From Onthophagus taurus (lineage: Eukaryota > Arthropoda > Insecta > Coleoptera > Scarabaeidae), in the NCBI RefSeq assembly GCF_036711975.1, contig NC_091972.1:16125001-16189000 (forward strand): a stretch of DNA of 64,000 nt, written 5' to 3'. Of the stretch, positions 944 through 61,785 are shown piece after piece. Numbering within the stretch: position 1 is the first letter of the stretch; each line of letters opens with the position of its first letter. The translations under genes were made by a program, and so were the position numbers. The notes beneath the pieces were generated by a model, which did not search any database, was not told the DNA's origin, and saw only the letters and a list, made by a program, of their open reading frames with translations.

Positions 944-1943
944 TTACAATTTCTTTTTCTTAGCAGCTGTTCTTTCATCATCACTATCATCATCATAACT
1001 AGGTTTATGATTGGCCAAAATTTTTTTAATTTCCTTTTTCTCAGATTTTAATTTTTTTCTTATATTCTCCAATTGTTCTTCCGGATTAGGTCCATCATCT
1101 TCTTCTTCAACATCGCTATCTTTTTTCCCACTTTTCTTTTCTTTTTCTTCTTCTTTCAACGTTTTTGCACTCAACTTAGGATCGTCTAAGATATCATGTG
1201 TTGATTTTCCTTTCCCCACAAACTTTCCGCTTTCTTTAATACTTTCTTCTTCATCTTCTTCGGCTTCAGCCCCAAAGGATAACAATTTAAAATTTTTAAC
1301 GCCTGCGGCACGTTCCTTCTTTTTCTTTTTCTTCTCAATTTTTTCTTCACTTTCTCTTGGTACAATATCATCAAACGGATTATGTAAAACGTCGGCTTTT
1401 AAGATTTTATGTGGATACTCAGGTTTCTCATCGTGAATTATCCCTTCTTGTAGTTTTAAAACGTTAAAAATCGTATCGCCAGCTATTTTTCCAAAAATCG
1501 TGTGTTTGTTTTGCAGTTCTGGAGTTGCAGCAAGAGTTATAAAGAATTGAGAACCGTTATCGTCTTTTCCTGCATTCGCCATTGCAACTAAACCTCTACG
1601 AACGAATTTTAATCTTTGATGGAACTCATCTTTAAACGGTTCGCCATAAATCGATTCTCCACCTGTTCCATCTCCATTTGGGTCACCTCCCTGAGCTATA
1701 AAACCTTTCACGACGCGATGAAAAGTGGTGTTGTTGTAATAACCTTCTAAACAAAGCTGAATGAAATTTCGGCATGCTTTTGGAGTTTCTTTTGACCAGA
1801 GTTCGATATCTATGTCACCTACTGTGGTTTTTAGCAAAACCTTAAAAAAATTTTAATTGATAATTAAGTGATTGTAAAAGATTATAAAATAAATATTGTA
1901 CCTTGCCTGATGTATGAGGTTCTAAAATATAAATATTACTCAT
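944..1943 (-). CDS. CWC27: Spliceosome-associated protein CWC27 (cyclophilin-type, probably inactive PPIase)
   Basis: Two coding exons on the minus strand: 1902-1943 (14 residues, MSNIYILEPHTSGK) and 944-1840. They are joined in phase 0 across a 61-base GT-AG intron, giving 312 residues. Residues about 11-166 form a cyclophilin domain (FHRVVKGFIAQGGDPNGDGT, then NGSQFFITL and NKHTIFGKI). A Lys/Glu/Asp-rich low-complexity tail with a LLSFG motif follows, as in the human protein. CWC27 is a spliceosome component, and human CWC27 is regarded as catalytically inactive. The start is the ATG in exon 1, because the N-terminus then matches the family almost residue for residue. At 312 residues it is clearly shorter than the human protein (about 470): the C-terminal half after the charged linker is missing, either a real short form, unseen downstream exons, or truncation. 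Confidence 0.93.
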
Positions 1944-2990: not shown

Positions 2991-5900
2991 ATGGCGGTGA
3001 ACGTTTATTCAACGAATGTAACAACAGAAAACCTTTCGCGGCATGACATGCTCTCTTGGGTCAATGATTGTCTCCAAAGTAGCTTTGGAAAAATCGAGGA
3101 ATTATGTACAGGGGCCGCTTACTGTCAATTCATGGATATGCTCTTTCCTGGATCTGTTCCACTCAAACGAGTCAAATTTAAGACAAACCTCGAACACGAA
3201 TACATACAAAACTTTAAGGTGCTTCAAGCTGGATTTAAAAAAATGAGTGTGGATAAGGTATGTCATAAATATTTTTATTACAAAATTTATTTTTGTGCTT
3301 TTTTTGATGAATTATGATGGGGTAAATAATAAAATTAACATAAAAAGAAATTAGGTTATAATTTGAATGTCAAAATGACAGGTGAAATGTCAAATTTGAA
3401 ATATAAAATGTCTAATAATTAATTAATTCAAATTAATGTAATAAAGGTTACTTTTTTTAAAAAGAAGGATTCTAGTTAAGGTTACTGATAAAATTGCTAA
3501 CTTTTTTATGATTTTTTACAATTTTTATTAAGTACATTTTGATTTCTAATAATTTTCTTAACGCCGCCATTTTTGAAATGTGACATTTAAAATGTCATTT
3601 TTATGATTTTTCGGATTTATTAATAAAAAAATATTTTAATATTCATTAACATATTTGTTTATCATTTCGTTAGTTCCAAATGTACAAGTTTCACAACAAT
3701 ACATAAGATGATTAAATTTACCGACGACCAACTTTAATTGTTTTATGAGTTTCAGCTTTCCTTCTCACCAAGTTTTTTCCTGTCCATCCAAGTCCTTCAT
3801 CATAATCTTCCTCCATGTTGTCCTGGGCCTCCCTCTTGTCTGGCTGTTTTGTGCATTCCAGTCTAGTACCAACCCAACCCACTTCTATATCTCTAGTTTC
3901 ATTTCCTCTTGTTTCGCCTGTCGTAGGTATTCTTCATTTGGTGCAAATAATATTTGTACTATCTTTCTCAAATGTTGCCTCATGTATTATTGTATCTTAT
4001 TTTCTATATTTTGTATCATCTTCCTCCGCCTTTTGTTACCATACTGCCTAAGTAGTAGAACTCTTCGACCTCATATATGTTCTGTGTTAATGTCCATTGT
4101 TGATAATTTCAATGTATTTATTTCTAACCCTACTTCCTGCACCATTCTGTTATTTTATTTAGTTTTGTTTGGATGTCTGCATGCATATGTGGCAGATCTC
4201 AATCCCCTCCTCTCTTTTTTTGTTCACCTCTTCCATTGAATACTGTAGTATTGTTCCTTTTCTCACTGCCCATAAAGACCTTTTCTTTATCTGCCTCAAC
4301 CTCTTTGCAGCACACACTAAAGTTTTTGGTACACCCTTTCTTTAAAACGCACCGCTCGCTTAACCGCTTCCATCCTCACCTTATCTACCTTCATTTCGTC
4401 TCTGCTTATATATCCCAGAGTCTTTCTAGCCAACCTCAACACCCACTTCCAGTACCTGGTCTGCACATCCTCTAACTACCCCTTGCTCCTTCCATCTCCA
4501 TATCTCCACGTCATACATCATTACGCTTTTTATCAAGTTCTCAAACATTTTCCTTTTTTCCACATCCCACCAAAATATCCTCTCACAATGACTTTATGAT
4601 GTTACTAATTTTCGTCGGAATTCTTATCTTTCCCAAAATTGTCCATACTGCAGCATGACTCAGTGAGTCAAAGGCTCTTAGTGGGAATTTCCATTCCTGT
4701 GATTATTTGATAATGATTCAGAGTGTATTTATGTAATCAACACACGACTTGTTGGGGCGAAAAACGGCTTGTTCTCTCATTAACTTTGGCTCTATGACTA
4801 TTTTGTTGATGATATTTAAAAGTGTGATGCCGCGTCAGTTACAGCATTTACTTACTTAGGTTTCCTTTTTTTTTTCAACTCTAAAGTGTTTTCCATATTC
4901 CACACTTTCTTAAATATGAGTTGTATGTAGTTGTGTGTTTATTATGGATATGTATGCCTGCAGTAGGAAGTTGTTCAATTCCTGCTTTTATTTGTCTAAA
5001 GGATGAGGCATTAGTGTTTATTTGTAATATTCGGCGGTTTCTCCTGTAATAAGGTCATTACCGTCTTTCAGTTCGGTTTTCCTCTGCTGTTATTGTGTTC
5101 GCATCATTGTTTTTTATTGGTTTTTTGTGAGTGTCCGATTTGTTAGTCTAGTTTCTCTGTACATTCCGCTTTTTCTGCTTGTTCCATGAGCCAGTCGACC
5201 CACTGCTTCTTGTTGCTCCTAGCTGATCTCTTTACCCTTAAGTTGGCTACACACGTAACTGCATACTTGAAAAGCATGCATGATTAATCTTTTTGTACAA
5301 GCATGCAAAATTTCCCTTCGACACCACACGATACAAGTATGGTTGAAGAAGTGCCAGTTTGCGCTTGGACTATGTCGAGCTCGGACGACGATGCGCTTAT
5401 AAATATTAAACTTATAACTAATTCTAATAACTAGTGTCATTCTGGATTGGATTCTTAACGATTTATACAAATTTAAAAAAACTTGTTCATGTAACAATAA
5501 TCTTGTATAATTTTTTATTTAAGAATTATAAATGATTGACGCAAGAATGAATTTTTTGATACAAAAAATTGATATTCTTCGATGTTAAGAATATGATATA
5601 CTTCATTCGATAATACTTCTATTCTTAAAACAAAAAGATATTTTAGGAAATACATTCAATAATAAATTTTTCTTGAAAGTCAAGAATAATGTCTCTTAGT
5701 GCGGGATCTCAGATTGCGACCTCTACTATTATTGGCAAATATCCCTACATATTTCATAAATTAAAGAAAACCTACGCCATTTTTAGGCTGACAAATTTCC
5801 TACGTCTGGCCACACGTCAAGCAATGTGCTTGGTACACACGTGCGGTTTCGCTTGCGCAAGCTTGCATGATTAAAATTCAATCCATCATCAAGCGGATTC

Positions 5901-8900
5901 CACAAGCAAAATATTTGTGCAAAATTATCCTACAAACGCTAAAGCATACTTGTACAAAAAGATTGATCATGCATACTTATCAAGTTTGCAGTTATGTGTG
6001 TAGCCACCTTTATGTCTAGATTTATCTGTTTTGTTCATCTCTTTTCTCTCTTGTATTAGCGTGTATACCAGCGTATCCACGTGTCATCTTTTATCCATTC
6101 CTTCTTGAGTTCTTTCCTCGCCCCCAGTATACATCTACTTTGTTTCTATTTCTGTTTTGGCGTTTTCCTATGTGTCAGTTTTTTGTTTGTATTTTTGTAC
6201 TTTCAGCTTTTTTATAACCTCTTTGTATGAAAGGATTCTCCACGTTCAGTTTTGCTCTTTTTACCCTGTGGCACATTACTAGATATACGAAATAAAAAAG
6301 TTGTGCCACCTTCTTATCGTTATATGATCTATTTTGTTTTATGTTCTGCCATCTGGTGACGTCCAATTGTTAAGTCGTTGTTCATGCAGAAGTCTACAAA
6401 TAATTCACCGTTGTTGTTTCTTTTTCCTAGACAATGTTTTCGATTATGTTCTCCAAGCCAAGATTCTCCTCTCCTTATATCATCTTTCTTTATTCTTTCC
6501 ATCGTTTGTGTGAGTGCGTCGTAGAAACTTTCTTTTGCTTCTTTCTCAGATGGGTCAATAAGCATGTAGCATTGTATTAAGCTGAGATTTCTCATGTTTG
6601 TGCGAAAGCGCAAAAAACTCTATCATACTTCTTGCCTGTTCATTCATCAATATACCCACTCCGTTTGCTTGGGTTTTTCCTTCTTCGTTTCCTGAGTAGA
6701 TCAGGGTTGCTTCATGCCAAGGTTGCTAATCAGTATATTTAGCACTAGCTGATGATCAATCTATAGATTTCGTTCTGATTATGGGGCTGCCATCTTAACC
6801 TACCAGATAGGCTAAAATGAGGGTGAAATTTAACCCAATGCGCTTGTAGATGAGGTTGGTAATTGGGCCATGGATGTTAGTCGGCCCCTTGCACTAGTTG
6901 ATTTCTTATTATTCTGTAAATCCTACAAAAAGCAAGAGGTTTATTTTGGCAGTGTGCCAAATCCTCCTGTTATCTTTGGATTCTCCATTCTCAATATTTG
7001 CTTATATCTTTATTCAATTCGATGTTATACACAATGTGCAATTATGTCTCCATATAAGTTTTATGTGTTCTTTGGCTTTCCCAACCTCTTCTTCTCTGTT
7101 ATGGAATATTCAAGGGTATGTCTTGTTCTATTGTTTTAAATGTGTATAATTTTAAAATAATAATCTGAGGTTTATTAAATTTATTCTTAACGCATTGTAC
7201 TTAATAAAAACAGAAAATATATGCAAACGTCGACGACTTTATTAATATTTATAAAATGTAACTTATAAAAAGGAAATGTAACTGTTTCATTGTACCTGTT
7301 TAATTGAACTAGTTTCCTTAACAAATCCTCCTTTTTCAAAACAGGAAATCGTAGGTTGTTATTGTTCAACATTTTTCACTATCGATTAAAATTCATTTCA
7401 TTAATTTTTATTAACTAAAAGCCCACTCAATGAAAATAAAATTGTAGGTTATACCTGTAGATAAGTTAATAAAAGGTCGTTTCCAAGACAACTTCGAGTT
7501 CTTGCAATGGTTCAAGAAATTTTTCGACGCGAACTACGACGGCCGCGCCTATGACGCGTTGGAAGCGCGGTCGGGCCTCGCTTTGGGTTCGGGGGCAAGC
7601 GATCAAGCGGGTGCCGTCGCCCCCGCTGTTTCCGCACCGACAGCCCCCAAAACGACTTACACTCGACAGGGTAACGGAATGACGTCCGCCACTCAACGTT
7701 ATGTACCCCCAGCTAAAAGAAAACCAGGTAACGCTAACGCAACATGTCCGTCCATTCAAATAACCGTATATGTAAATACTTTATGATTAAAGGAGAAAAA
7801 TCATATCTTCTTTAAATATGTTAATCATCATTTGCTCTAAATTCATTTTAACAAACTTAAAATATAGAAGATAACTAGTTTGTGGATTTCATTTTGTTTG
7901 TTGGTGTTACGGTTGTGTTGTAAACAACATGGTTGCTTTTATCTGGGGTTAAAATGTGGGCATTTTTCATTGTGCTAGTAGTTATTTATAACTTAGAGCC
8001 AGTAAAAGGACGGTAGAATCTAAGAGGACTGCTACATCCCGGGAACGAGTGCACAGTTCGACGGACCGTTAGTGACGTCACGCATGGGTAGGTAAAAAGA
8101 AAAATCTTAATCGATTTTAAGCGTGATTCGGCTAAAGCCGAATGTTTCTAGTTCTAGGTCTAGTTTTAGTTAATTAAAAATATATAACAACGCTGAATAA
8201 CTAAGACTGGAGCTTACACTAGCACTTAAACTAACACTAGACCTAGAACGAGAAACATTCGGGTTTAACAGTACGTCTCTTAAGACAGCAACAACAGCCG
8301 ACTGAATGTGACACGTGATTGGTCCGATACTGACGTCATTTTCTGAATTACAAAGGATGTAGCAGTCCTTTTAAATTCTACCGTCCTTGGAGTCAACCCC
8401 CCTTTTAGAATATTTTCACGCATTGTCAAAGCACGAAGAAGTCTAAAAACGTTATTCTCATTTTTCATTTCTAAATTTATTATTAGTACTTTATTTTCAA
8501 TTATTTTTCTAATTTATTAATTTATCTACAACGTATGCGATACAATTTTTGCATCATCAAAGCACTTTTTTTAATTGGTTTTGTTTTATTTTTTTTTCTT
8601 TTTTATTAAATTAATTTTGTTCAATTATTGTTTCTTTTATAAAATATACGTTTGCTTTTGGATGGGATTTGCGGCGAACCAATAAAAAATTACAAAAAAA
8701 AAATAGATTGTGCCCATCGATAGGCTGGTTAAGGGCCGTTTCCAGGATAATTTCGAGTTTCTACAGTGGTTCAAGAAGTTTTTCGACGCGAACTATAAAG
8801 GAACGGAATACGATGCGTTAGGGATGCGTAGCGGAGAGGCAATGGGCAATGGGGGCGGATCAGCGCCGAAATCGAGCGGCATCAAAAAACCAAGCCAAGC

Positions 8901-11900
8901 CAACTCGACCAAAACATCGCCGGCCGCCGTTAAGCCCCAACCAAAAGCTAGTATGTTTAAAATTCTTAAGTTATTTTTAAAGCTTATTTTTGTCAAAATT
9001 TAAGTTGATTTTTTTTTCTCATTTCAAATTCATTATCATAATTCACTTGCTTTTTTCTTCTCTTTGTTTTACATTTGCTTATTTCATTTTATGAGAACAT
9101 TTTCAATTTTAAAGCATGTTATTTAAATAGGAATTAATGTTTGTTTTTAAATAATCAATTATCAATTTAAACAAAAATTATTTCTTCACTCAATCTGTAA
9201 TTACTCAGATAGAAAAGCTTTTTTCAACTTATTCATTAGTAAAGAAAAATTATGATTTCACCCTTTCCAAGGCAGAACCGGCATCGACGGCGATGTGTAT
9301 TCATGTGGTTCTGATCCTGTGCTACTCTGCACCGGGAGTTGGCTAAAATATTGGATCTGCAGTTCCTCAGATAAAACTCATTCGTCCACCTTTTACTAAC
9401 TTCTGTAAAAACTTGACACACTGGTCATCTCTTCTCATGTCCAGTGCAGAAAAGTCGTGACATTTCAGTAGGGATGCGTAATCCGTTCCACAATCCGGGT
9501 ATGATGCATCCAAGTGTAGAGACAAATATCATAACATATATATTGTGGTGATCTAATTACAGACCCATATTCATTCCGTTTTCATACAAAGGTCAGAAAC
9601 AAGGACTTGTACACATTGATGTTAGAAAAGGCACGCGATGTACGCAAAATTAAACCAGGCGTCCTTGCTGGGGCAGATGCAATATCTTCAATGTGCGGTG
9701 CAAAAGACAATTTGTAGTCAAAAATAACTCCCAGATCCCTGATTGTAAATAGTTTCTCTAGAACATCTTCTACGTATATAATAAGCGGAAGGAAGTGACC
9801 CTTGCCTGTAAAACTAACAGCACCGCACTTATTACTATTAATTTTTAGCTGATAATGATTACAGTATTCTACCAAGATTACTACCAGATTCGTCCAAGTC
9901 CGACTGCAGACTGACAACATCACTTTCTGAAAAAATAGGTCGGAATAATTTCAGATCAATCCGTATAGGCTAATACCACAGAATAACCGGACATGACACT
10001 GACGTCGCATCGATTCGTTTGATGTTGGCGTCACATCAGTTTAAAATCCGCCATCTTATCGCCAGTTACCAAAGGCACAGCATAATCAGAAATGATACTG
10101 ACGTCGATTTGTTTGATGTTGGCAACATCTCGTTTTATGACGTCGATTTAAAATCCGCCATTTTATCGTGAGCAACCATAGGCGCGATGCATGAGAGAGA
10201 CAACTTAAGTTACTACCAATAGCAGCAATACCTTGCTTCCTCGCAACAATATGGCGTCAGATTTGACCAGACTTGTGGTTATTCTGTGCCAGAAGTGACA
10301 CTGGCGGTATCCCGCCAAATCTTTATGACCAATAGCAACATACCTTGGAAACTCCTTATAATATGACGTCAGATTTGGCGAGATGCCGCCAGATTCACTT
10401 CTAGTTATTTTGTGCTAATACGCTAGATAAGAATGTGTCTAGAAAGTCATTCAAGAAGATAACAAATAGTAGGGGGCCTAGATTTGAGCCTTAAGGAACA
10501 CCAGACATATAATTACATATACTTTATCCGACTCGACAGCTAACAGGTATATACAGTATATACTATATGCGCATTGCAATACCAATACTGCGCGATTTGC
10601 GCATTGCAATACTAATACTGTGTTGGTTGCATACTTGCAATGATGACGTCGGGTACGATAATTAATTAGCACACTGTAGTTTTATAAGCTTAGGAGAAAA
10701 GCCAAAAGTACTACGTTTATTCATGAGGACGTCGTGATGAATCATATCAAATGCCTTAGAAAAGTCGGTGTATACCACATTCATCTGACCACTCTTATCT
10801 AAAGATTCACAAATCACTTTAGTAAGTGATAAGTCAGTTTCGCCATGCTTGAATACAGGAACAATGTTGCAATGTACGTTTGCAGTAGAAAGGAGGCCAG
10901 TCAATCGTCGCGAATTCCTTCTCGAGGTTATCTTCTTGTGAGGGGTTCTTATCGTGTGTTGAAGTAGTTGGAAGTGTGTCATGCAAAACACCAGGAGCAG
11001 TACGGACCATTAGAACACCTGCCCATATTGACGCAGTCCGAGCTTCATTTTTGCGCTCTGTATCTAAACATGCAGTTGCCCTGGGGTTGTGAAATCGTTC
11101 AAACCGATTCTTCCGAAATTCTTCAATTCTCCGAAACCGATATTCTTCATGATGAACTACACTTTCACGACAAACGGCATGCGAAATTTCCATATCTTAG
11201 GTTGTGTTAACAAACAAAGTATGCTATATTGGAGCGATATAACTATATTGATATATACCAGGTGTTCATTAAGTGTTGGACTAGCTTAATATCTCCAAAA
11301 ATACTTGTCGAATCAACATGAAATTGGAAATGCGAATTTGACTTAACAAAATTTTCAACTGTTTGCCTGTTAAACTTTTCAAGGTGCAGCGCCAACTTGA
11401 TTTTTTTTAAATAGCTCCACTAGTCAAAATTGACATCATTCGAAAACTTATTTTATTCTGCATTCGTATATCAACCAAGGGAACTCCATGGACTGCGATA
11501 TCAAAAGTAGTAACCATTGCGCTACATTTTTTCGAAGAGTGCAATCGCACGGTAATAATCAATTTGGAGCGTGATGTGACCATGCTTGGAAATTTTTTCT
11601 GCCAGCTCTTGAAAATTTCGCCATTAACGATGTATGGTTTCAGCGACTGCCCATACGTCACGAATTTCAATATGTGTTATGAAAGATAATTTTCCATGGC
11701 GACTTATCTCCAATAGAGGTGATATTTCGTGGCCCGCACGCTCGTCGGATTTAATTGAAAGTCTTTAACAATTCTGGAAGCATACCGTTTGCTATGCTGG
11801 AGAGAGTCTACAAATATTCTTTTTAAAACTGTTTGATACCAAACTTCCTACGTTAGTGCATAAAGCTAATAAAAAAAATTTTTAAATGTAAAATATGTAT

Positions 11901-14900
11901 AAAGAAGGTCTTAGTTCCGGACCCTGTATGAACATCTTTTTTGTCACGCTATTTTATTTCAAGAAAAGCTTCATTTTTGAGGCTTTGCATTAAATTTAGG
12001 CAATATACATTATATTAGAATTAACAGTGCCACAGCAATTTACTTTCTTCTAGTGGAACTATTTCTATAACAAAGGGCTTGAGTACCAGTTGTCAAAATA
12101 TAAATCGTGGGCTTTTCCGCTATATGATTCCATCAGCGTCATGCTTATGTTACCTGATTTTTCTATATCCTTTTCAAAATCTTTTACTTCTGTTAATACT
12201 CCGGTATAAATTATAAACTCTAAAATGTAGTAGATTTGGCAATCTACAATTACGAAAAATTTTATACCAAAGCGCTGTCATTTTCACGGTATGTACTGGC
12301 GAAAGCAAATTCTTCCTTTGAAAAGCCTAAGACTTTAATCAATGACCAAAGATTGAAATGAATAAAGGCTTTGTTTGAATGTAAATATTTTTGAAATGAT
12401 CCACAACAAGATGTATTTTGTATAGCTTATCATTTACGTTGGGATTAGAATTATTTGCAAAATGAAGATACTTTAATAAATCTGTACTTTTTGCTGTTTG
12501 ACTTGTGCCATAATACAAAAAATAAATACATTTCTGCTTACATTGGAAGTACACATTTTAATAATAAAATAATTGAGTTTGTAGTTTAGACTTCTAAAAC
12601 TCTATCTCACCGCATCCATATCAAAAACCACAATCGTGCGGTTTTGATCCTTACACATGCCTCCGATATTACGTGTGTAGATACGGTTTTGATCTATGAC
12701 GCATTTTTTATTTTGCATGTACAGGGTGGTCCATTTAACGTGAGACAAGCGATTATCTCGACAAAATTTTACATAGAAATGAACCAAATGAAAGTTGTTC
12801 TGTGCGAAGGGGGAAACCATATGACGATAATATTTTTTAACCTTGAACCTTATTTTCAAGGTCACGACCAATTTTTTAAATGGTACCCTATGTTTTTAAT
12901 TGCAGAATCTGAATCTATGGATGAAAGTAAGATAATTTAAAAAAAAATTACCGTGTGTATCTTTTGTAGACAAAATCTCAATAATTTTTTTATTCAAATA
13001 GTTTTAAATATTGTTTATTTCTAAAAAAATGATTAAAGTATACTATTAATCAACAAGAAGTGTAAAATTTATAATAAATGTTCAAATATTTTCCCACCCA
13101 CTTCAATACATTTATTAACCCTTCTACTAAAACGTTCTTTACATCTTAAAAGGTTTTCTTGGCTACTATTTCTGCATACATTTCTTATGTACTTCGCGAT
13201 AAACATTATCCTTAAGGACGGCCACAAAAAGAAATCAAGAGAAAAAAAGAGGAAATTGGACCTCCCCTTCCAATCCATTGCCCAGCATAATCCCGATCTA
13301 AAGCTTCACGTGCAATATGTGAAAAATGTGCTGGACACCCATCATTTCGCAGCCACATATTTTGTCTTTCTTCCCTGCTCAAATCTACAAGTAACGTTGG
13401 TAAGACGTCATCTAAAAAAATTCGGTACTTCTTCCCATTCAGCATACCATCAATAAAGTATGGACCGATCAATTTATCACCAATTATGCCACACCAAGCA
13501 TTAACCGACCAAGGTTGATGTTCTACTTCACGCTCCAATAGTGCATGTTATGTCTATTGACTTGTCCTTTGTTCTGCATTCGTTCTTGTGCCCATTGACA
13601 AAATATTAATCGGTTTTCAAAATCACCTCCATAAAGCTGTGGATGCAATAAAATGTGGTATGTAGGGATTGCAATCAAGAAGGGTTTTTACAATCCCGGG
13701 ATTTCGAGAACAGGATTCTTTATCTCGGGATTACCAGGGATTTCTGGGCTACAACTTATTCTCACCATAATACAAGAAATCTCAACCATGGATAGCACTA
13801 TTTTTAAAGAAATGTCGCAGAATAATCAATTTATCTATTGTTTTATTTCCTAAACGAGATCTAAATTTTGTGTTGAAGAGAAGCACCGTTCCGATTCCAC
13901 ACTTGTTGGTGGAATAGTTTTCAAACATTCAAAAGCGAATTGAATTTTTATCCATATTACCGCCATTATTGAATATATCAATTTCCTGGATCGATGTATT
14001 GAAGAGTGCATTCTTAGTTAACTGGACAGGTGGCTTTGTTGTCTTTGTTTAGACATTTTCAAACATATTTTGTTCTTCTATCTCATTTATCATAAATTGT
14101 AAAGCTATATCTGCTTTTCCTAGTGCAATACACCGCAAACATAAGGCTTTTACAGTCAGCTTTGCCGGCTCCAATATGGTTACTAACGCTTTAATAAGTT
14201 CGTACTGTGAATCTCCAAGAAAGGGCTCTTATGTCAACCATTGCTTTACGTGCGCATTTTTCTAATAATATGAATCGGTCCAACATAACAAACAGTGTAC
14301 TCCACCAATTCTGACAATTTAAAATTAATTTAATTTCTTTTTCGTGGTCTTTTTTTATATAATTTTGACATAAACATATCCCGAACTTATAATTGATTTT
14401 CCGACATAATTTTCGAGATTTAAATATGTACGGAATCCCGGCATTTGCGGGATTGCAATTCCTAGTGGTATGTGTGATACTTGTTGCGCTTTCATATTCT
14501 TAAAATGCTGGTCTTTGATATTCGGCGTCAGTTGCAAGTCGTCGATTGCTAACTTGAGGATTTACCTCACTGCTAGCTAACACCGCAATTTCCTTTTCTT
14601 CCGTAGTTACAGTTGCTCGCCGAGTTCTTTTTCTTGATTCCACGTCTCCAGTGTTAGTGAAATCATTCACAACGTTGTAAAAGGTACTTCTCGAAAGCGT
14701 ATTTCGATCAGGAAAACGTTCTCGATACAAAGCTATACTACCGGCAACTTTTCTGCCACTTTCTCCATAAATAAAAATCATTTAGACTTTTTCTGCCACA
14801 CTTAGAGTATCCATGATTTATTGACTTAAACACTTTGCCTTATAAACGATAGAATGAATGCAGAATTTGTTGCTAAGCAGTTTTTATGCAAATTTAGTTT

Positions 14901-17412
14901 TACTTGTTACATTTTAAAACAATTCAACCAATTAAGTCTGTAAGCGATATTCTGAAAATGCCGACATAAGCAGTTCCACGAATTCGGAAGTCGGAACCTT
15001 TTAGACTTCTTGTATGTATGTATGTAGGAAAGCGGAGGGTATGCTTCCGCATACAGCACCTAGGCCCCAACGGACCCCTTGTATGTCCTCCTACACTCTC
15101 TCCGGCTACATCAACCAGCCTAAGGAATTTCCGAAGACTAGGATACAGCTCAGAGGTGTGTTCCTGATGCCATCTGTGGTCGGCCATTCCTCTCCGAAGT
15201 CTCTTATTCTGAGGTCTTGCAGAGTGGGGCATTCACACAAGATGTGTCGGACCGTCTCTTCGCTCTCTTTACAGAGGCGACAGAGAGGACTAACAGCAAG
15301 CTTAAGGTTATAAAGATGCTTGTTTACCTTACCCGTGACGAGTCCCGTTACAGTTCGTAGAGCGTTTCTGCCAAGCCTTACGAAAGACAAGGCTGCCTCT
15401 GCTGAAGGATAATGTAATACTTCCTTAGACAGATGGCAGCCCTTAACCCTATCCCACCAGTTCATAAACTTTTTGTGGGTAAAATCTTTAATTATCTCAA
15501 TCTGAGTTGATATGGACGGAGCGATTATCGGTTCAGGCGAACATGGCGCTCGCTTGGCAGCCCTTTTGGCAAGCCTATCAGCGTGCTTGTTACCTGAACA
15601 AGTCGAGTGTCCTTTTATCCATTGAAGTATAACAGTTATGCATTGCGGCCTTCTCCAATGTCAGATGACAACCCATAACAAGTCCTGAGGTAATTGTTAT
15701 TCTACTCAGGGCCAAAATAGCTTGTCTACTGTCAGTATAAATTGTAAAAGTCTTACCTACCAAGTTGGATCTGACAATAACGTCAGCGGCACGTTGTATG
15801 ACGATTAATTCCGCCTGTATGACGTGGTACTTTTACCTAGTGGGTCAGATACGTGGAGTCGGAGATCGTACGAGAAGACTCCGGCTCCAGCTCCTTCCCG
15901 TCTCTTTGAACCATCAGTGTAGATTTTAAGGCTGTTTTTACCTCTACTTCTGTGGAACTTGGGTGGGTGAGATATTTCTTCGTAAAAATGTGTTGTAGGG
16001 GTGTAATGTCCGTTACACAATCCAGAATTGGTGAGTATTCCACCATTTTGTTCCAGAGATTGGCATTTTTACTGTTTCTCTCACCCATTAGAATTCCTGC
16101 TGCTCGCAGTCGAATCATGGTCACCAATGCCACCTCTTGGATGAACAAATGAAGTGGCGTTAGGTTTAACATGTTTTCCATGGCTGCAGTGGGGGTAGTC
16201 CGCAGCGCACCTGTAACATACAAACACGCAAGTCTCTGTACTTTAATAAGTGCAGCAGTAGATGTAGACTGTAGGGTCTTTGGCCACCATACTACTGCAC
16301 CATATGTAAGCATAGGTCGGATTACAGCCGTGTAAATTCAGAGGGCATTTTTGGGTGACAAACCCCATGTCTTACCTATAGCCCTCCGGCATTGACCGAA
16401 TGCAACGTACGCTTTTTTAACTCTATTATCTAGGTGGGCTCTCCATGTCATTTTATTGTCAAGCGTGATGCCCAGATATTTAACTTCTTTTGACAATGCC
16501 AATGGAGTATTAGCAAGGAATGGCATTCTGGGCTTAGCAACCTTCCTCATCCGTGTGAAAAGAATCAACTCTGTCTTCTTAGTCTTAGACCTCTTTACAA
16601 AGGTATTTCCGACGAGCCAGGTCACCCGATGTACCTCTTCTGGATCTTTTTTGTTGAGCATGTTTTACCATTCTACAGGCAAAACCACACAGTAAAATGT
16701 TTTAATTACTTTACTTTTATCCACAGATTCAGATTTTACAATAAAATATATAGGGTGATATTTAAAAAATTGGTCGTGACCTTCATATAACCTTGAAAAT
16801 AAGGTCTAGGTCAAAAAATGTTTCCCCTTTCGCACAGAACGTCCTGTATATACGATCTTGGTCCTTAAAGGGTTAAATATAATTTAAAATTAACACAAAA
16901 AGAGCATGTTTAAAAAATTATTCTTATTCTTGACACGAATACTAATGCTTTATTTCCTCGTCTTAATTTTTTGATGATTGATTATTAAAAAATAAAAAAA
17001 ATATTCCTAAAAAATCGATTGTGAAATAGAGAATTTACATATTAGTGCCTAAAGTAAATGCAGTACGTCCGGTGACCAAAACGGTGACTTCGGTGAACAG
17101 TCGTGGCGATTCCGGGAAAATAGAAGAGCTGACAAGTCAAATTTTGGAATTGAAAGTGAGCGTAGAAGGTTTAGAAAAGGAGCGTGATTTCTATTTCGGG
17201 AAGTTGCGTGACATTGAGGTTATGTGTCAAGAGTCCGAAGAGGGTAATCCCCTAATCCAGAAGATTTTGGAAGTTTTATACGCAACCGAAGTAATATTTA
17301 AAAACAACAATATTTTTATATTTCTAATGGAGTTTGTGTTGTTTTAATTTAGGATGGTTTCGCACCCCCCGATGAGTTAGAAGGTGGCGCAGACGAACAG
17401 GACGAGTATTAA
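2991..17412 (+). CDS. Eb1: Microtubule plus-end-binding protein EB1 (MAPRE family), with mutually exclusive exons
   Basis: Coding exons: 2991-3257, then either 7448-7727 (2a) or 8707-8950 (2b), then 17046-17290 and 17353-17412. All junctions are GT-AG and keep frame. Predicted lengths are 283 residues with 2a and 271 with 2b, against about 268 (human) and 290 (fly). Exon 1 and the first part of exon 2 form the calponin-homology domain that binds microtubule ends ([32 protein letters not shown]). A variable Ser/Ala/Lys-rich linker follows, then the coiled coil and EB-homology domain that dimerises and binds SxIP partners ([29 protein letters not shown]). The tail is acidic and ends DEY, as expected for CAP-Gly binding. 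An AATAAA lies a few bases after the stop, near 17417. Introns 1 and 3 (4.2 and 8.1 kb) are full of transposon remains. Confidence 0.96.
3258..3739. other. Start of EB1 intron 1, no feature recognised
   Basis: AT-rich intronic sequence with several short blocks such as GTCAAAATGACA and AAATGTCAAATTTGA, reminiscent of the wording of satellite C at 58-60 kb. I see no gene. Confidence 0.5.
3740..6740 (-). mobile_element. RTE-type non-LTR retrotransposon relic (endonuclease and reverse transcriptase)
   Basis: Reading the minus strand from 6740 down, a fragment at 6613-6329 matches the endonuclease region of RTE elements ([20 protein letters not shown], then [17 protein letters not shown]). After an inserted element at 5241-6009, reverse-transcriptase pieces follow. 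These are [10 protein letters not shown] near 4860-4840, [15 protein letters not shown] near 4780-4730, and [18 protein letters not shown] near 4690-4630. A stretch like [15 protein letters not shown] near 4530-4490 resembles the LINE at 28.0-29.5 kb. Frames are broken by many stops, so it is dead. The pyrimidine-rich plus-strand open frames at 3745-4475 are antisense shadows of it. Confidence 0.75.
5241..6009. mobile_element. Non-autonomous TIR element inserted in the RTE relic
   Basis: The ends are inverted copies over about 65 bases: GGCTACACACGTAACTGCAT at the left and, reverse-complemented, GGCTACACACATAACTGCAA at the right. Both continue through GCATGATNAATCTTTTTGTA. The interior has no coding capacity. 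The GGTGGCTACACAC-like end resembles hAT-derived MITEs, but I could not find a convincing target-site duplication. Confidence 0.75.
6741..7447. other. Rest of EB1 intron 1
   Basis: Some of 6741-6870 may be the 5' part of the RTE relic. Beyond that I see AT-rich intron ending in the polypyrimidine-poor acceptor ATTGTAG at 7441-7447. The open frames here have no recognisable content. Confidence 0.4.
7448..7727 (+). CDS. Eb1: EB1 alternative exon 2a
   Basis: Enters in phase 0 after ATTGTAG and leaves in phase 1 at CCAG|GTAACG. It encodes 93 full codons: [20 protein letters not shown], then [20 protein letters not shown]. This is the end of the calponin-homology domain, followed by an Ala/Thr/Pro-rich linker that ends in a basic KRKP patch. 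The DGRAYD segment is the canonical EB1 form. GC content is much higher than in the surrounding intron, as expected for an exon under selection. Confidence 0.93.
8006..8388. mobile_element. TIR element carrying a palindromic module, between EB1 exons 2a and 2b
   Basis: Inverted ends of 34 bases (AAGGACGGTAGAATCTAAGA at 8006; the reverse complement at 8355-8388 differs at a few positions). Inside, 8109-8286 holds one copy of the double-palindrome module that forms the arrays at 20, 31 and 45 kb, recognisable by CATTCGGGTTTA and CTAGTTCTAGGTCTAG. No coding capacity and no clear target duplication. Confidence 0.8.
8707..8950 (+). CDS. Eb1: EB1 alternative exon 2b
   Basis: Second copy of exon 2, with acceptor AAATAG at 8701-8706 and donor GCTA|GTATGT. 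It encodes 81 full codons plus one base: [20 protein letters not shown], then [20 protein letters not shown]. The linker is shorter and rich in Lys, Ser and Gly. The core [19 protein letters not shown] is identical to exon 2a, whereas the following segment is KGTEYD instead of DGRAYD. Entry and exit phases equal those of 2a. Using both exons together would shift the frame, so only one can be included. Confidence 0.92.
9973..10415. mobile_element. Cluster of GCACAGAATAACC-ended MITEs
   Basis: At least two adjoining or nested copies of a family whose ends read (G)CACAGAATAACC..GTGACACTG, or the reverse complement GGTTATTCTGTGC. Internal marks are GACGTCAGATTTGG and AAAATCCGCCAT. Related copies lie at 19632-19740 and 23041-23166. 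The cluster interrupts the LINE at its YADD active-site codons. Confidence 0.75.
10545..10678. mobile_element. MITE fragment, same family as 23165-23334
   Basis: The right part, GTTGGTTGCATACTTGCAAT through ACGATAATTAATTAGCACAC, is the same as the right arm of the palindromic element at 23165-23334. The left arm is replaced by other sequence, so this copy is incomplete. Confidence 0.6.
11245..11930 (+). mobile_element. Mariner-like transposon relic
   Basis: The recognisable coding piece is [16 protein letters not shown] at about 11717-11765. It matches the 'WPARSPDLTPLDFFLW' region around the third catalytic acid of mariner-type DDE transposases. Elements of this kind often start like 'AGGTGTTCATTAAGT', seen at 11260, and the relic may end near CCGGACCCTGTATG at 11916-11929. 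No intact frame remains. Confidence 0.5.
12040..12335 (-). pseudogene. piggyBac-like transposase fragment
   Basis: The minus strand reads, with small frame changes, [20 protein letters not shown] followed by [20 protein letters not shown] and DNWYSSP. This is the stretch of piggyBac transposases with 'LCD..TGY' and 'LYVDNWYTS', including one catalytic aspartate. Neither the ends nor the rest of the element are visible, so it is a remnant. A different piggyBac piece lies at 46990-47290. Confidence 0.7.
13663..14464. mobile_element. hAT element remnant with 8-bp target duplication
   Basis: An 802-base insertion with inverted ends (TAGGGATTGCAAT and ATTGCAATTCCTA) is bounded on both sides by the exact 8-base direct repeat GTGGTATG (13655-13662 and 14465-14472). 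That size is diagnostic for hAT. The minus strand near 14290-14080 still spells transposase fragments such as [20 protein letters not shown] and [20 protein letters not shown], with frameshifts. It split the mariner transposase between its HTH and DDE parts and is therefore younger. Confidence 0.9.
14990..16690 (-). mobile_element. LINE fragment with RNase H domain (I/R1 group)
   Basis: The minus strand carries, in order, the RT thumb region ([20 protein letters not shown], 16661-16338), a linker ([20 protein letters not shown] and following, 16313-15837), an RNase H start ([20 protein letters not shown], about 15940-15870) and a C-terminal zinc motif ([19 protein letters not shown], about 15285-15225). 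A short TATG-type microsatellite at 15012-15027 fits the element's 3' tail. It is 5' truncated, frameshifted, and inserted inside the mariner element. Confidence 0.8.
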
Positions 17413-19789: not shown

Positions 19790-22700
19790 TTTAGAGACGT
19801 GCGATTCTAGTTCTAGGTATAGTGTTATAGTTTCCGATTTTTCTGGTGGTTTTTATGACCCTCAGAAATAGAAGCAGCAGTAATTATCACCCCGAAAAAG
19901 TACCTGATCGTGATTTATGACACGCCCTCCTAGCGAATTAGGTCCAGGGACGCACTTCTTTTTTTATTTTATTTCAATATGAATTATTTAACATTTCTAA
20001 CCGGCGATTGTCGTTAATTCAACATTCTTCATCAGTGTCATAACAGTTGTCACTTTCCGCGCATTCTAAGCTGTCGTTATCAGAAGAATCATCAACACTA
20101 ATAATAAAACGCTGTATATGTACCGACACATACGAATCTTCGACATCTTTCACGTGTTTTATGCATTGCGACCACAATTCCGATGAAATTTTATTATATT
20201 CCTCACAAATTATGTTAATATTGTTTTTAAATATTATGTTTTTGTAATTTCCGTTAATGCGGACCTGAACAACTCACGCCGGAGATAGGGGTTCGTCAAC
20301 TACCTGTTCACAACCCTCTCTTTGTTCGTTATATGACTGCAATTAAGTCATAAAAACCATCAGAAAAACCGGAGACTATACTTTTAGTGATAGTACTAGT
20401 GTAAAACTAGAACTAACACTATACTTAGAACTAGAATTATTCGGGTTTAGCCGTCTTTAGAGACGTGCGGCTAAACCCAAATGATTCTAGTTCTAGATAT
20501 AGTGTAAATTCTATATAGTAACAGTTCTAGTTTTAATTGTTATGCAGTGTTAGACCTAGAACTAGAATCATTCGGGTTTAGCCGTCTTAAGAGACGTACG
20601 GCTAAACTCAAATGTTTCTAGTTCCAGGTCTAATGTTAGTTCTAGTGACAGTGCAAGTGTAAAACTAGAACTAACACTATACCTAGAACTAGAATCATTC
20701 AGGTTTAGCCGTCTTTAGAGACGTGCGGCTAAACCCAAATGATTCTAGTTCTAGGTATAGTATTAATTCTACATAGTAACAGTGTTAGTGTAAAACTAGA
20801 ACTAACACTATACTTAGAACAAGAATCATTCGGGTTCAGCCGTCTTTAAAGATGGGTGGCTAAACTCATATAATTCTAGTTCTAGGTATAATGTTACTTT
20901 TAGTAATAGTACTACTATAAAACTAGAACTAACACTATACTTAGAACTAGAATCATTCGGGTTTAGCCGTCTTTAGAGACGTGCGGCTAAACCCAAATGA
21001 TTCTAGTTCTAGGTATAGTATTAATTCTACATAGTAACAGTGTTAGTGTAAAACTAGAACTAACACTATACTTAGAACAAGAATCATTCGGGTTCAGCCG
21101 TCTTTAAAGATGGGTGGCTAAACTCATATAATTCTAGTTCTAGGTATAATGTTACTTTTAGTAATAGTACTACTATAAAACTAGAACTAACACTATACTT
21201 AGAACTAGAATCATTCGGGTTTAGCCGTCTTTAGAGACGTGCGGCTAAACCCAAATGATTCTAGTTCTAGATATAGTGTAAATTCTATATAGTAACAGTT
21301 CTAGTTTTAATTGTTATGCAGTGCTAGACCTAGAACTAGAATCATTCGGGTTTAGCCGTCTTAAGAGACGTACGGCTAAACCCAAATGTTTCTAGTTCCA
21401 GGTCTAATGTTAGTTCTAGTGACAGTGCAAGTGTAAAACTAGAACTAACACTATACCTAGTACTAAAATCATTCAGGTTTAGCCGTCTTTAAAGACGGGT
21501 GGCTAAACTCATATAATTCTAGTTCTAGGTATAATGTTACTTTTAGTGATAGTACTACTATAAAACTAGAACTAACACTATACTTAGAACTAGAATCATT
21601 CGGGTTTAGCCGTCTTTAGAGACGTGCGGCTAAACCCAAATGATTCTAGTTCTAGATATACTGTAAATTCTACATAGTAACAGTTCTAGTTTTAATTGTT
21701 ATGCAGTGCTAGACCTAGAACTAGAATCATTCGGGTTTAGCCGTCTTAAGAGACGTACGGCTAAACCCAAATGTTTCTAGTTCCAGGTCTAATGTTAGTT
21801 CTAGTGACAGTGCAAGTGTAAAACTAGAACTAACACTATACCTAGAACTAGAATCATTCAGGTTTAGCCGTCTTTAAAGACGGGTGGCTAACCCCATATG
21901 ATTCTAGTTCTAGGTATAATGTTACTTTTAGTGATAGTACTACTGTAAAACTAGAACTAACACTATACTTAGAACTAGAATCATTCGGGTTCAGCCGTCT
22001 TTGGAGACGTGCGGCTAAACCCAAATGTTTCTAGTTCTAGGTCTAATGTTAGTTCTAGTGACAGTGCAAGTGTAAAACTAGAACTAACACTATACCTAGA
22101 ACTAGAATCATTCAGGTTTAGCCGTCTTTAAAGACGGGTGGCTAAACTCATATGATTCTAGTTCTAGGTATAATGTTACTTTTAGCGATAGTGTACTACT
22201 ATAAAACTAGAACTAACACTATACTTAGAACTAGAATCATTCGGGTTCAGCCGTCTTTAGAGACGTGCGGCTAAACCCAAATGATTCTAGTTCTAGATAT
22301 AGTGTAAATTCTATATAGTAACAGTTCTAGTTTTAATTGTTATGCAGTGCTAGACCTAGAACTAGAATCATTCGGGTTTAGCCGTCTTAAGAGACGTACG
22401 GCTAAACCCAAATGTTTCTAGTTCCAGGTCTAATGTTAGTTCTAGTGACAGTACAAGTGTAAAACTAGAACTAACACTATACCTAGAACCAGACTCATTC
22501 GGGTTCAGCCGTCTTTAGAGACGTGCGGCTAAACCCAAATGTTTCTAGTTCTAGGTCTAATGTTAGTTCTAGTGACAGTGCAAGTGTAAAACTAGAATTA
22601 ACACTATACCTAGAACTAGAATCATTCGGGTTTAGCCGTCTTTAGAGGCGTGTGGCTAAACCCAAATGATTCTAGTTCTAGGTATAGTGTTAATTCTACA

Positions 22701-23035
22701 TGGTAACAGTGTTAGTGTAAAACTAGAACTAACACTAAACCTAGAACTAGAAAGTTTCGGGTTTAACGGTGCGTCTTCAGTGTTAGCTCTAGTTTTAATT
22801 GTTATGCAATGTTAGACCTAGAACTATAAACATTCGCATTTAGCCGCACATCTCTCAAGATGGCTAAACTCAAATGTTTCTAGCTCTAAGTCTAGTATTA
22901 ATTCTAGTTTTAATTGTTATTAAGCTTGTATATTTTTATTGAAATAGTTGAAAGGTTAAATATACGTATTAGAAAAGTACGTATATTAGATCATATAGTA
23001 GAAGTAGAATCATTTGGGTTTAGCCGTCTTAAGAG
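19790..23035. repeat. Array of about 130-bp double-palindrome modules
   Basis: At least 19 tandem modules. Each is a hairpin TTCGGGTTTAGCCGTCTT / AGACGTGCGGCTAAACCC followed by a second inverted pair CTAGTTCTAGGTCTAGTG / CACTATACCTAGAACTAG with an AGTGACAGTGCAAGTGTAAA-type spacer. Spacing between 'GCCGTCTT' marks is about 130 bp. Variants recur in a fixed order, so there is a higher-order repeat (blocks at 20.44, 20.94, 21.21, 21.59 and 22.23 kb are near copies). No CRISPR features: repeats are palindromic throughout and there are no unique spacers. One TIR element is inserted at 19828-20378. Confidence 0.9.
19828..20378 (-). mobile_element. TIR element inserted in the palindrome array, with transposase C-terminal remnant
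   Basis: The ends are inverted: TTTCTGGTGGTTTTTATGAC at the left, and GTCATAAAAACCATCAGAAA at the right. The minus strand at about 20245-20027 reads WSQCIKHVKDVEDSYVSVHI followed by an acidic end (SVDDSSDNDSLECAESDN) and a stop. This resembles the C-terminal region of pogo/jerky-type transposases ('W..C..HV...E..Y'). It is probably an internally deleted derivative of a full element. The family call is tentative. Confidence 0.6.
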
Positions 23036-43108: not shown

Positions 43109-44073
43109 ATGAAGGTATATTTACGTCGAAAAAGAAAACCGGACCTAATTTCACTGATCGCACTCCTTTTACTTGCTTCATCAAGTTCGCAGGCTGCAGA
43201 AACGACATCGAATTCACGACAAAAAAGGATTTTGTGGGTGACTTCCGATGGTCGTTTAGCTTTACCGCCGGGTACCACTTTAGTCGTTGGACCTTCCCTT
43301 TCGATGCCGTTCGTTCGATATCCTCCGGAAGGTTTTCACAGTAATCTAACGATAAGCTTACCATTTACAAGTAAAAAATAGAAAACACAAAAATTTCATT
43401 TTGATTAATTTTGTTTAAATTTTTTAGTTGATTTTGATAAATTGGGTTTAACTGATAATGAAAATCCTTACGGCGTATTGCCGCCATTATTGGCACGATC
43501 GATGGGTAATTCAGTCGCCGATCTACTTGGAAATTACATAGAAAGTATGCTAGACCATAAAAAGAAGCGCAGGCAGAAGAGAGAAAACATGCCCAAATTG
43601 TCTGAAAAACACTTGGATGCGTTTCATGGCGGTGAAAGAGCCATACTGTATATGGTAGTTCAAGATTTTTTGGAAAATTTTGGTTTGGATGGAAAAGCAT
43701 GTTTATTAAGAGCTATTTGCGAAATTCACGCTCATCCGTTAAGAAATTTCGGATTATTCGGAGAATTTTTTAAATTATTTTTAACGTAAGGAATTGTGCC
43801 ATTTTCAAACAATTCATTTTAAACGATTCTTAAATTTTCAGAGCTAGTAAATCGCCATATTCGCATTTACTCAACGAATATGTTGAAGCGGAAAAATCTG
43901 GAAGAGGAACTAAAGACAGTCCAGGAGAATGTTGGCCGTACTTAAAAGATTGTCCTAAATCGTTATTTTTACCGAAACACAATAAATATTCAGAGGAATT
44001 AGACGAAAACGATAATGAAATTGATGATGGGGAACATTCAGTTACCTACAAAGCAGACACATTAAAAATGTAA
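43109..44073 (+). CDS. Secreted DM4/DM12 family protein
   Basis: Three exons: 43109-43370, 43428-43785 and 43842-44073, with introns of 57 and 56 bases (phases 1 and 2), giving 283 residues. The N-terminus has a basic start and hydrophobic core (LISLIALLLLASSSSQAAET), read as a signal peptide. A segment like WVTSDGRLALPPGTTLVVGP follows, and then a basic KKKRRQKRE stretch that could be a processing site. The C-terminal domain has the family's conserved cysteines (GKACLLRAICEIHAHPLRNF, then GECWPYLKDCP). DM4/DM12 proteins are arthropod-specific, small and of unknown function, often occurring in gene families. No sign of damage. An acidic tail closes the protein. Confidence 0.92.
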
Positions 44074-46989: not shown

Positions 46990-47292
46990 TAAGATGTGCA
47001 CCAAAAACTTTGTTCCCCTCGCGATGCTTTTGAATATTTCATGACAGAAGGTATTTTGAAAAAGATACTTCATTCTACAAATTTAGAAGGTAGATGTTTT
47101 AGTAGCCCGCAGAAAAATATTACATGGCGCGAAATAGGCTTGGTTGAGCTTTATGCATTTTTGAGCTTGGTGCTGCAAACCGGTGTTGAAAGAAATTGGG
47201 ATGTGCCAATAAGGGAACTATTCTCGGGAAAAAACAATCTTTTGTATAAAGCTGATATGGCAGTTAGAAAACTTGAATGTATATCAAGATTT
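46990..47292 (+). pseudogene. piggyBac-like transposase N-terminal fragment
   Basis: Reads SPRDAFEYFMTEGILKKILH, then EIGLVELYAFLSLVLQTGVE and RELFSGKNNL...CISRFL. This matches the piggyBac pattern 'F..FF...L...I...TN ... EI.AFLGL.I..G' and ends at 'LRFL'. It continues abruptly into Tigger sequence at about 47293 in the same frame, so it is a chimeric junction and not a gene. Confidence 0.7.
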
Positions 47293-61769: not shown

Positions 61770-61785
61770 AATAAATCAAATTAAA

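Follow-up and report, generated by a model that had tools for sequence, protein, structure and literature searches.

A tandem pair of probably mutually exclusive exons at the edge of the microtubule-binding domain of EB1 in the beetle Onthophagus taurus

The only EB1 gene detected in the genome of Onthophagus taurus carries an old tandem duplication of its second coding exon, the two copies of which (2a and 2b, Table 1) are very probably spliced in a mutually exclusive manner. EB1 is a hub of the microtubule-tip network. The gene lies in the window analyzed here, a stretch of 64,000 nucleotides of the beetle genome. The spliceosome would join exon 1 to either 2a or 2b and the chosen copy to exon 3, while messages that include both copies or skip both would be degraded. 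The two resulting proteins would have the tip-recognition core in common. The differences would lie in residue 90, which is part of the tubulin interface, in residues 120-135, which follow directly on the calponin-homology (CH) domain, in the length of the linker, and in its content of phosphorylation sites. Both forms would thus be able to track tips as such, but with a different affinity for the tip or a different position at it, and under different control by kinases.

Table 1. Features of the EB1 gene, by position in the window (a slash marks an exon boundary)
Feature	Positions	Strand	Description
EB1 coding exon 1	2991..3257	+	residues 1-89, first part of CH domain; phase-0 end; donor AAG/GTATGT
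Exon 2a	7448..7727	+	CH-finishing residues 90-119 (V90), D120, linker version A; acceptor TTGTAG/GTT, donor CAG/GTAACG
Intron between 2a and 2b	7728..8706	+	979 nt, with inverted-repeat element inside
Inverted-repeat element in 2a-2b intron	8006..8388	.	34-nt arms, 94% complementary; inner 55-nt arms at 8117-8171 and 8229-8283
2b acceptor region	8563..8706	+	AG-free 142 nt (8563-8704)
Exon 2b	8707..8950	+	CH-finishing residues 90-119 (I90), K120, linker version B; acceptor AATAG/ATT, donor CTA/GTATGT
Exon 3	17046..17290	+	last part of linker (common to both forms) and EB1 C-terminal motif PF03271
Exon 4	17353..17412	+	acidic tail with DEY end, then TAA

Both spliced products have the domain content of EB proteins, domains being called by scores above the curated cut-offs of the respective profiles. 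The CH domain (PF00307) was matched at residues 17-118 in both, with 51.5 and 50.2 bits (cut-off 26), and the EB1 motif (PF03271) with 64.9 and 65.3 bits (cut-off 27). Both products end in ...DEQDEY, an acidic tail of EB type that closes in DEY rather than EEY. The duplicated exon completes the microtubule-binding domain, as claimed in an earlier note on this DNA. In the whole 291-Mb genome the C-terminal motif had a single match, and all significant genome-wide matches of the EB1 exon queries fell at one EB1 locus, where exon 1 was matched at 1.9e-55 and exon 4 at 7.8e-4. Of two telomere-type repeats sought as a hint of the insect order, TTAGG x6 occurred at a single place (two overlapping matches) and TCAGG x6 nowhere, a result that is uninformative.

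The reading frame provides the first line of evidence for a choice between the copies. Exon 2a is 280 nt long (93 codons) and exon 2b 244 nt (81 codons), each length being 1 mod 3; each copy is preceded by AG and followed by GT, starts in phase 0 and ends in phase 1, and joins in frame both to exon 1 (end 3257) and to exon 3 (start 17046), so that the exon coordinates and phases first proposed proved exact. Either exon alone yields an open EB1, of 283 amino acids with 2a or 271 with 2b. With both included the frame meets a premature stop 475 nt before the last junction, and with neither included 236 nt before it. The earlier note had foreseen the frame break for the double inclusion, and skipping both copies breaks the frame too. 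Its statement that splicing must choose holds in that both wrong products are non-productive, and is slightly too strong in that the frame proves only this; since the frame does no more than make such messages non-productive, decay could do part of the exclusion. These same early stops, together with acceptors that are pyrimidine-poor at 2a, 2b and exon 3 alike, lend some plausibility to exclusivity that is not strict, with some messages carrying both copies or neither and lowering the level of EB1 in the manner of poison exons. Poison exons, however, need no homologous and selected protein sequence, and 2b has one. Such leakiness is possible, if doubtful, and is compatible with mutually exclusive splicing as the best explanation.

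The homology of the two exons is clear. They are identical at 25 of 30 residues between positions 90 and 119 and at 34 of the first 46 codons; the homology initially noticed was real, the list of identities was too short, and conservative changes at residues 90, 91, 93, 95 and 97 had been overlooked. With 2a as query, a genome-wide search recovered 2b at E 4.2e-21. When open, phase-correct and length-matched AG...GT candidates were collected on either side of 2a (8 + 5 candidates), 2b reached 0.81 of the self score (BLOSUM, 46 residues) and the runner-up -0.19, while the reverse strand of 7728-17045 offered 52 candidates with a top score of -0.11. Of 20,000 random 81-codon intron frames, 2.8% were open. 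Judged by these comparisons, a chance resemblance is excluded.

Divergence between the copies further speaks for their age. Over 30, 38 and 46 codons, pS was 1.04, 1.04 and 0.99 and pN 0.07, 0.12 and 0.18, respectively; YN00 returned a finite value for the 46-codon length only (dN 0.27, dS 1.50), and the NG86 method of Biopython returned no dS for the pair, which is saturated. Near-saturated silent sites combined with low pN indicate that 2a and 2b are an old duplicate kept under selection, both copies as protein. The suggestion that one gene makes two EB1 proteins fits this structure, in which both forms keep the CH domain and the EB1 domain (PF03271) and both copies were under selection. When 6448-8200 was compared with 8201-9950, the sole direct match under E 0.01 joined 7433-7536 to 8695-8795, that is, the exon and at most 15 nt. 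It is hardly conceivable that the pair is an artefact of assembly or annotation, whether through a duplicated haplotype or through another gene or a pseudogene within the intron: the copies lie on a single contig, separated by the intron listed in Table 1, their direct match is confined as described, no second exon 1, 3 or 4 for 2b was found in the genome, and the heavy synonymous divergence refutes such an origin.

A third copy of exon 2 was found neither by the genome-wide query nor by tblastn of the intron nor by the candidate scan. A weak tblastn match at 13585-13629 (E 1.1, 18.1 bits), considered as an exon relic, was rejected as chance, near the edge, since 1 of 40 shuffled introns equalled 18.1 bits and the neighbouring frames held no further similarity by eye. 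Searches with the exon-2 alignment gave 12 pattern matches in viral contigs and 132 in prokaryote contigs, none of which was confirmed. As a separate observation, 2a and 2b agree in 7 of the 8 degenerate codons at residues 111-118, against differences in 20 of the 33 degenerate codons that they share overall (p 0.041 by permutation, for a window size picked after looking); this local identity may reflect gene conversion, an exonic splice element or chance.

The splice signals of the two copies are unequal. Pyrimidines at positions -23 to -4 number 3 of 20 before 2b, 7 before 2a, 7 before exon 3 and 12 before exon 4. The last 26 nt before 2b are A-rich, and its pyrimidine tract (19 of 20 at 8584-8603) ends 103 nt before the exon. 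The 2b acceptor is thus predicted to be weak, with a distant pyrimidine tract. These features are not unique within the gene: the exon 3 acceptor is comparable, with 7 of 20 pyrimidines nearby and a tract of 17 in 20 that lies 73 nt upstream, and intron 1 also contains an AG-free gap, of 139 nt. The choice between the copies would be regulated, and the weak 2b acceptor with its distant tract would be a plausible control point. The same poverty of pyrimidines close to 2b could instead mark a decaying copy with little or no use in splicing, with 2a as the working exon, a reading also in keeping with residue 120, where 2a keeps the D120 of human EB1 and EB3 and 2b has K120. We regard it as very unlikely. 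The 25 unchanged CH residues, the frame and both splice sites have stayed intact despite near-saturated silent sites, and a strong pyrimidine tract does lie upstream of the acceptor; an unused copy of such age would have decayed, and the intact state of 2b therefore speaks against it.

Mutually exclusive exons are predicted from a common splice-site type and frame, a length difference of up to 20 amino acids, and similarity (PMC3228551). Exons 2a and 2b are neighbours of the same AG...GT type and the same phase 0 to phase 1 frame, differ by 12 amino acids, and are similar to the degree given above (34/46 identical, 0.81 of self score). Minor-type donors have the consensus ATATCC or GTATCC; with donors GTATGT, GTAACG, GTATGT and GTAATA, none of them minor-type, incompatibility of U2 and U12 splice sites is excluded. 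Simple steric blocking of a 2a-2b join, which requires a branch point closer than about 50 nt to the upstream donor (PMC7969005), is likewise excluded, the 979-nt intron being too long. This distance and the four ordinary GT donors leave frame-based exclusion, which is known for pairs of mutually exclusive exons (PMC6071210), and removal of wrong products by frame is the best supported layer of the proposed exclusion.

RNA structure could in principle enforce the choice as well. Other insect genes, such as Dscam and 14-3-3zeta, rely on competing structures in which selector sequences pair with a docking site (PMC6071210), and here they would be an added layer upon the mutually exclusive splicing that we favor. 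No RNA pairing above chance was seen among the near flanks of the exons, where 10 pairings between five stretches (278-400 nt), each evaluated against 40 shuffles, gave z from -1.82 to +1.09. Around the two acceptors, local folding likewise did not exceed that of shuffled sequence (z +1.78 and +0.53). A T-rich/A-rich inverted repeat (8585-8607 / 8681-8703) flanks the 2b acceptor, and its fold was matched or beaten by 197 of 200 shuffles. Such a structural layer is unlikely. The larger inverted-repeat element at 8006..8388 is putatively MITE-like.

What the choice would change in the protein can be read from the residues that exon 2 encodes. Residues 90, 100, 105 and 106, all encoded here by exon 2, are tubulin contacts that set EB2-type versus EB3-type tip tracking and differ between vertebrate EB2 and EB1/EB3, the four having been tested jointly and not one by one (PMC6398475). 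They read V, R, F, E in 2a and I, R, F, E in 2b, and so residue 90 alone switches and three are constant. The V90/I90 difference is mild, and the I/V swaps at 91, 93 and 97 suggest drift among hydrophobic residues. Q89 of Mal3 is important for end tracking (PMC3368265), and its counterpart by match offset, residue 102, is Q in both copies. The linker had been described as differing as a whole; most of it does, and the final 23 residues, encoded by exon 3, are common to both forms. An S/T-P site occurs in linker B only, a crude search for [KR]x[ST] gave one match in A against four in B, and the net linker charges, +7 and +8, are nearly equal. EB2 has a lower affinity for microtubules when its linker is phosphorylated at several sites, and phosphorylation at several sites likewise lowers that of Mal3 and Bim1 (PMC4821873). 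CH domains from which most of the linker had been left off retained their nucleotide preference (PMC6398475), and thus the difference in linker need not alter tip preference. Different tip tracking by the two forms would have a concrete basis in residue 90 and in most of the linker.

The arrangement resembles known tandem-duplicated exclusive exons, as in insect Dscam, Mhc and 14-3-3zeta and in vertebrate OGDH (4a/4b), FGFR2 (IIIb/IIIc) and SNAP25, where adjacent homologues of the same phase and of similar length each give a full protein. In FGFR2, both exons together break the frame, as do 2a and 2b (PMC6071210). It differs from these genes in its host, EB1, and in that the exon runs from the border of a folded domain into a linker. 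The 3' splice site of OGDH exon 4b, with its distant branch point, finds a likeness in the AG-free 142 nt before 2b and the tract about 100 nt upstream. However, the distant branch points of human OGDH are only 25-41 nt away from the upstream donor and the OGDH intron measures 118-131 nt in birds and mammals (PMC7969005), whereas some 835 nt separate the 2a donor from the start of the AG-free zone of 2b, in an intron of 979 nt, and the steric mechanism of OGDH is inapplicable here. Vertebrate EB1, EB2 and EB3 (MAPRE1-3) have the same domain plan as beetle EB1, and linkers differ among these paralogues (PMC4821873) as they do between forms A and B. Vertebrates, however, use three EB genes, where the beetle would have one gene and a splice choice in which residue 90 is the only one of the four to switch; unlike the separate vertebrate paralogues, the two beetle forms have their exon 1 in common, and their C-terminal cargo domain as well.

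Exclusive exons are well known as a type, and among the literature matches listed we found no paper describing such an exon pair for insect EB1. The main texts of the consulted papers that deal with exon duplication or exclusive splicing contained no word beginning with 'Eb1', and we saw nothing on EB1 isoforms in PMC5014079 and PMC8284659. Drosophila Eb1 is one of 34 differentially spliced genes in one study, where we saw no statement of the exons concerned (PMC7885120). The pair may already be annotated somewhere, since several isoforms of EB1 are often given in public gene models of insects.

The exon pair spans exactly the region that separates EB2-type from EB3-type tip tracking, in an insect with a single EB1 gene. 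If the proposed splicing is true, the gene would offer a natural test in which locus, first exon and cargo domain are the same and only the interface edge and the linker are swapped, and one cloned isoform or one EB1-GFP reporter in such an insect may capture only part of EB1 activity.

Conceptual splicing of the EB1 gene yields two open products, one of 283 residues from exons 1-2a-3-4 and one of 271 residues from exons 1-2b-3-4. In each, the calponin-homology (CH) domain, at residues 17-118, and the C-terminal EB1 motif both score higher than the curated cut-offs. Since exon 1 encodes residues 1-89 only and exon 2, in either copy, encodes residues 90-119 and then the initial part of the linker, the alternative exon completes the CH domain, as the earlier note had proposed. 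The positions claimed there for 2a and 2b were exact, and the phases (start in phase 0, end in phase 1) are borne out by the codon joins to exons 1 and 3. The frame also breaks, as claimed, when both exons are included: exons 1-2a-2b-3-4 reach a stop at codon 188, 475 nt upstream of the last junction. Skipping both (exons 1-3-4) gives a stop at codon 93, 236 nt upstream of the last junction.

Coding exons of EB1 and other features (window positions)
Feature	Position	Strand	Remarks
EB1 coding exon 1	2991-3257	+	starts with ATG, ends between codons; residues 1-89
EB1 exon 2a	7448-7727 (280 nt)	+	full codon at start, one base of split codon at end
EB1 exon 2b	8707-8950 (244 nt)	+	full codon at start, one base of split codon at end
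EB1 exon 3	17046-17290	+	gives remaining two bases of split codon
EB1 exon 4	17353-17412	+	ends ...DEQDEY, then stop
MITE-like inverted-repeat element, 2a-2b intron	8006-8388 (383 nt)		34-nt terminal inverted repeats (94%)
LINE-like remnants, 2b-exon 3 intron	15106-16664	-	
Large tandem array	20379-22765		repeat periods of 127 nt (18.5 copies), 258 nt and 385 nt
Cyclophilin-type isomerase	944-1852	-	Pfam; presumably CWC27-like
RING + NHL-repeat protein	23913-25697	-	Pfam
Reverse transcriptase (RVT_1)	28086-29429	+	Pfam; mobile-element gene
DM4/DM12 protein	43409-43789	+	Pfam; insect family, which fits an insect source
DDE_Tnp_1_7 transposase fragment	46993-47493	+	Pfam; mobile-element gene
Ras-family GTPase	56142-56501	-	Pfam
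TRM13-type methyltransferase	61756-63453	+	Pfam

The resemblance of the two exons stands well beyond chance. Against the 291-Mb genome, 2a matched itself and 2b alone (E 4.2e-21 for 2b). A scan for open AG...GT stretches of the right phases and length returned eight candidates in 3258-7447 and five in 7728-17045, among which 2b reached 0.81 of the self-score and all others were negative (next best -0.19); on the opposite strand of 7728-17045, the highest of 52 candidate scores was -0.11. At nucleotide level, the sole direct match with E < 0.01 between 6448-8200 and 8201-9950 joined 7433-7536 with 8695-8795, covering the CH portion of the exon and no more than 15 nt of acceptor. Furthermore, the EB1 C-terminal family had one match in the genome (seven candidates scored), and the full 2b-type protein gave five exon matches at the EB1 locus, its only match elsewhere being non-significant (contig C10, E 0.48). 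Because these searches score the best candidates only, the numbers of matches are minimum values; with that proviso, EB diversity in the animal would have to arise from this one gene.

Over the first 30, 38 and 46 codons of 2a and 2b, pS was 1.04, 1.04 and 0.99 and pN 0.07, 0.12 and 0.18. Synonymous differences are about as numerous as synonymous sites, so the NG86 method returns no dS value; YN00, on 46 codons only, gave dN 0.27 and dS 1.50 (ratio about 0.18). Constraint is tightest at residues 90-119 (human EB1 numbering), 25 of 30 being identical. That the proteins are so alike and their silent sites so unlike indicates that both copies have long been selected as protein. Amid this heavy silent change, residues 111-118 (7511-7534 and 8770-8793) use the same codon at 7 of 8 degenerate codons, a run with a permutation p of 0.041 in a window picked after looking.

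Exon 2 begins at residue 90 in the alignment to human EB1. Within its CH part, the copies differ at residues 90, 91, 93, 95 and 97, all conservatively. Beyond it, 2a has D120, R122 and A123 (D120 being present in human EB1 and EB3) and 2b has K120, T122 and E123. According to Roth et al. (PMC6398475), four conservative changes at the tubulin interface (I90V, K100R, F105L, E106D) set EB2 apart from EB1 and EB3, and EB2 with all four reverted tracks tips in cells indistinguishably from EB3. All four positions are encoded in exon 2, reading V,R,F,E in 2a and I,R,F,E in 2b, and hence one of four switches with splice choice. The valine or isoleucine at residue 90 as basis for a tip-tracking difference is a lead, not a demonstration, because the four residues were assayed jointly rather than singly (PMC6398475) and I/V swaps are common. 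Both forms should be able to track tips, given that each keeps the glutamine at residue 102, which corresponds approximately, by the offset of a database match containing a two-residue gap somewhere, to Mal3 Q89, described as important for end tracking (excerpt of PMC3368265).

The earlier note held that the whole linker differs, which goes too far, as the final 23 residues of the linker are encoded by exon 3 and shared by the two forms. Up to the coiled coil, the linker has 87 residues and net charge +7 with 2a (version A) and 75 residues and +8 with 2b (version B). An S/T-P pattern occurs in version B only, and the rough [KR]x[ST] pattern has one match in version A and four in version B. Since linker phosphorylation reduces the microtubule affinity of EB2, as multi-site phosphorylation does in yeast homologues (excerpt of PMC4821873), versions A and B could be controlled in different ways. 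An argument against a linker effect is that CH domains without most of the linker retained nucleotide preference in vitro (PMC6398475).

How one exon is chosen was approached through several known mechanisms. For competing RNA structures, ten pairings among five near-flank stretches of 278-400 nt, each compared with 40 shuffles, did not exceed chance (z -1.82 to +1.09), nor did local folding at the 2a and 2b acceptors surpass that of shuffled sequence. U2/U12 incompatibility was rejected, none of the donors (GTATGT, GTAACG, GTATGT, GTAATA) being of the minor type when compared with the U12 consensus. Steric blocking requires a branch point less than about 50 nt from the upstream donor (excerpt of PMC7969005) and fails in the intervening 979-nt intron unless the branch point lies at its far end. 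Frame-based exclusion with decay, for which FGFR2 is cited as a case (PMC6071210, in part), is directly supported by the stops predicted in double-inclusion and double-skip products; it clears wrong products and makes no choice between 2a and 2b.

The 2b acceptor may offer a handle for that choice. Three of the preceding 20 nt are pyrimidines, a tract with 19 pyrimidines in 20 nt lies about 103 nt upstream, and the acceptor region (8563-8706) has an AG-free zone of 142 nt (8563-8704). This is reminiscent of acceptors with a distant branch point, as found at some mutually exclusive exons, but lacks the steric effect seen there. AG-free runs of at least 142 nt were absent from the 144 and 393 gaps in the gene's two other long introns (longest 139 and 123) and made up 7 of 3276 gaps across the window; of 5000 local shuffles, 0.56% contained one. 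The acceptor is nevertheless not unique, as that of exon 3 is also poor in pyrimidines with a tract 73 nt upstream, and these features, from one sequence in an AT-rich intron, mark a putative control.

Inside the MITE-like element of the 2a-2b intron lies a second, inner inverted repeat of 55 nt (82%), whose sequence is of CTAGTTCTAGGT type, and units of the large array carry CTAGTTCTAGGT and GCGGCTAAACCC motifs similar by eye to that inner repeat. Within the LINE-like region, scanned up to 16337, Pfam gave weak RNase H and zf-RVT matches, both slightly under the curated cut-off, in 15106-15660 and none in 15837-16337. Six exact TTAGG units were found solely at C3:12202483-12202517, and neither TCAGG arrays nor ordinary insect telomere arrays were found in the assembly, in a search that is less reliable for simple repeats.

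Mutually exclusive exons arising by tandem duplication are of a well-known kind, and 2a and 2b would be predicted as such by published criteria, as far as the excerpt of PMC3228551 gives them. No description of such an EB1 pair was found among the matches listed in open-licence full-text literature, a scope outside which lie most subscription papers, exon-catalogue supplements and public gene models. Given that scope, and given that Drosophila Eb1 is among 34 differentially spliced genes in one study (PMC7885120, in part), the pair may well already be annotated or tabulated. The making of two EB1 proteins by choice of one homologous exon is supported in gene structure and predicted in expression and function, and in residue 90 and the linker the pair offers a specific, testable functional lead.
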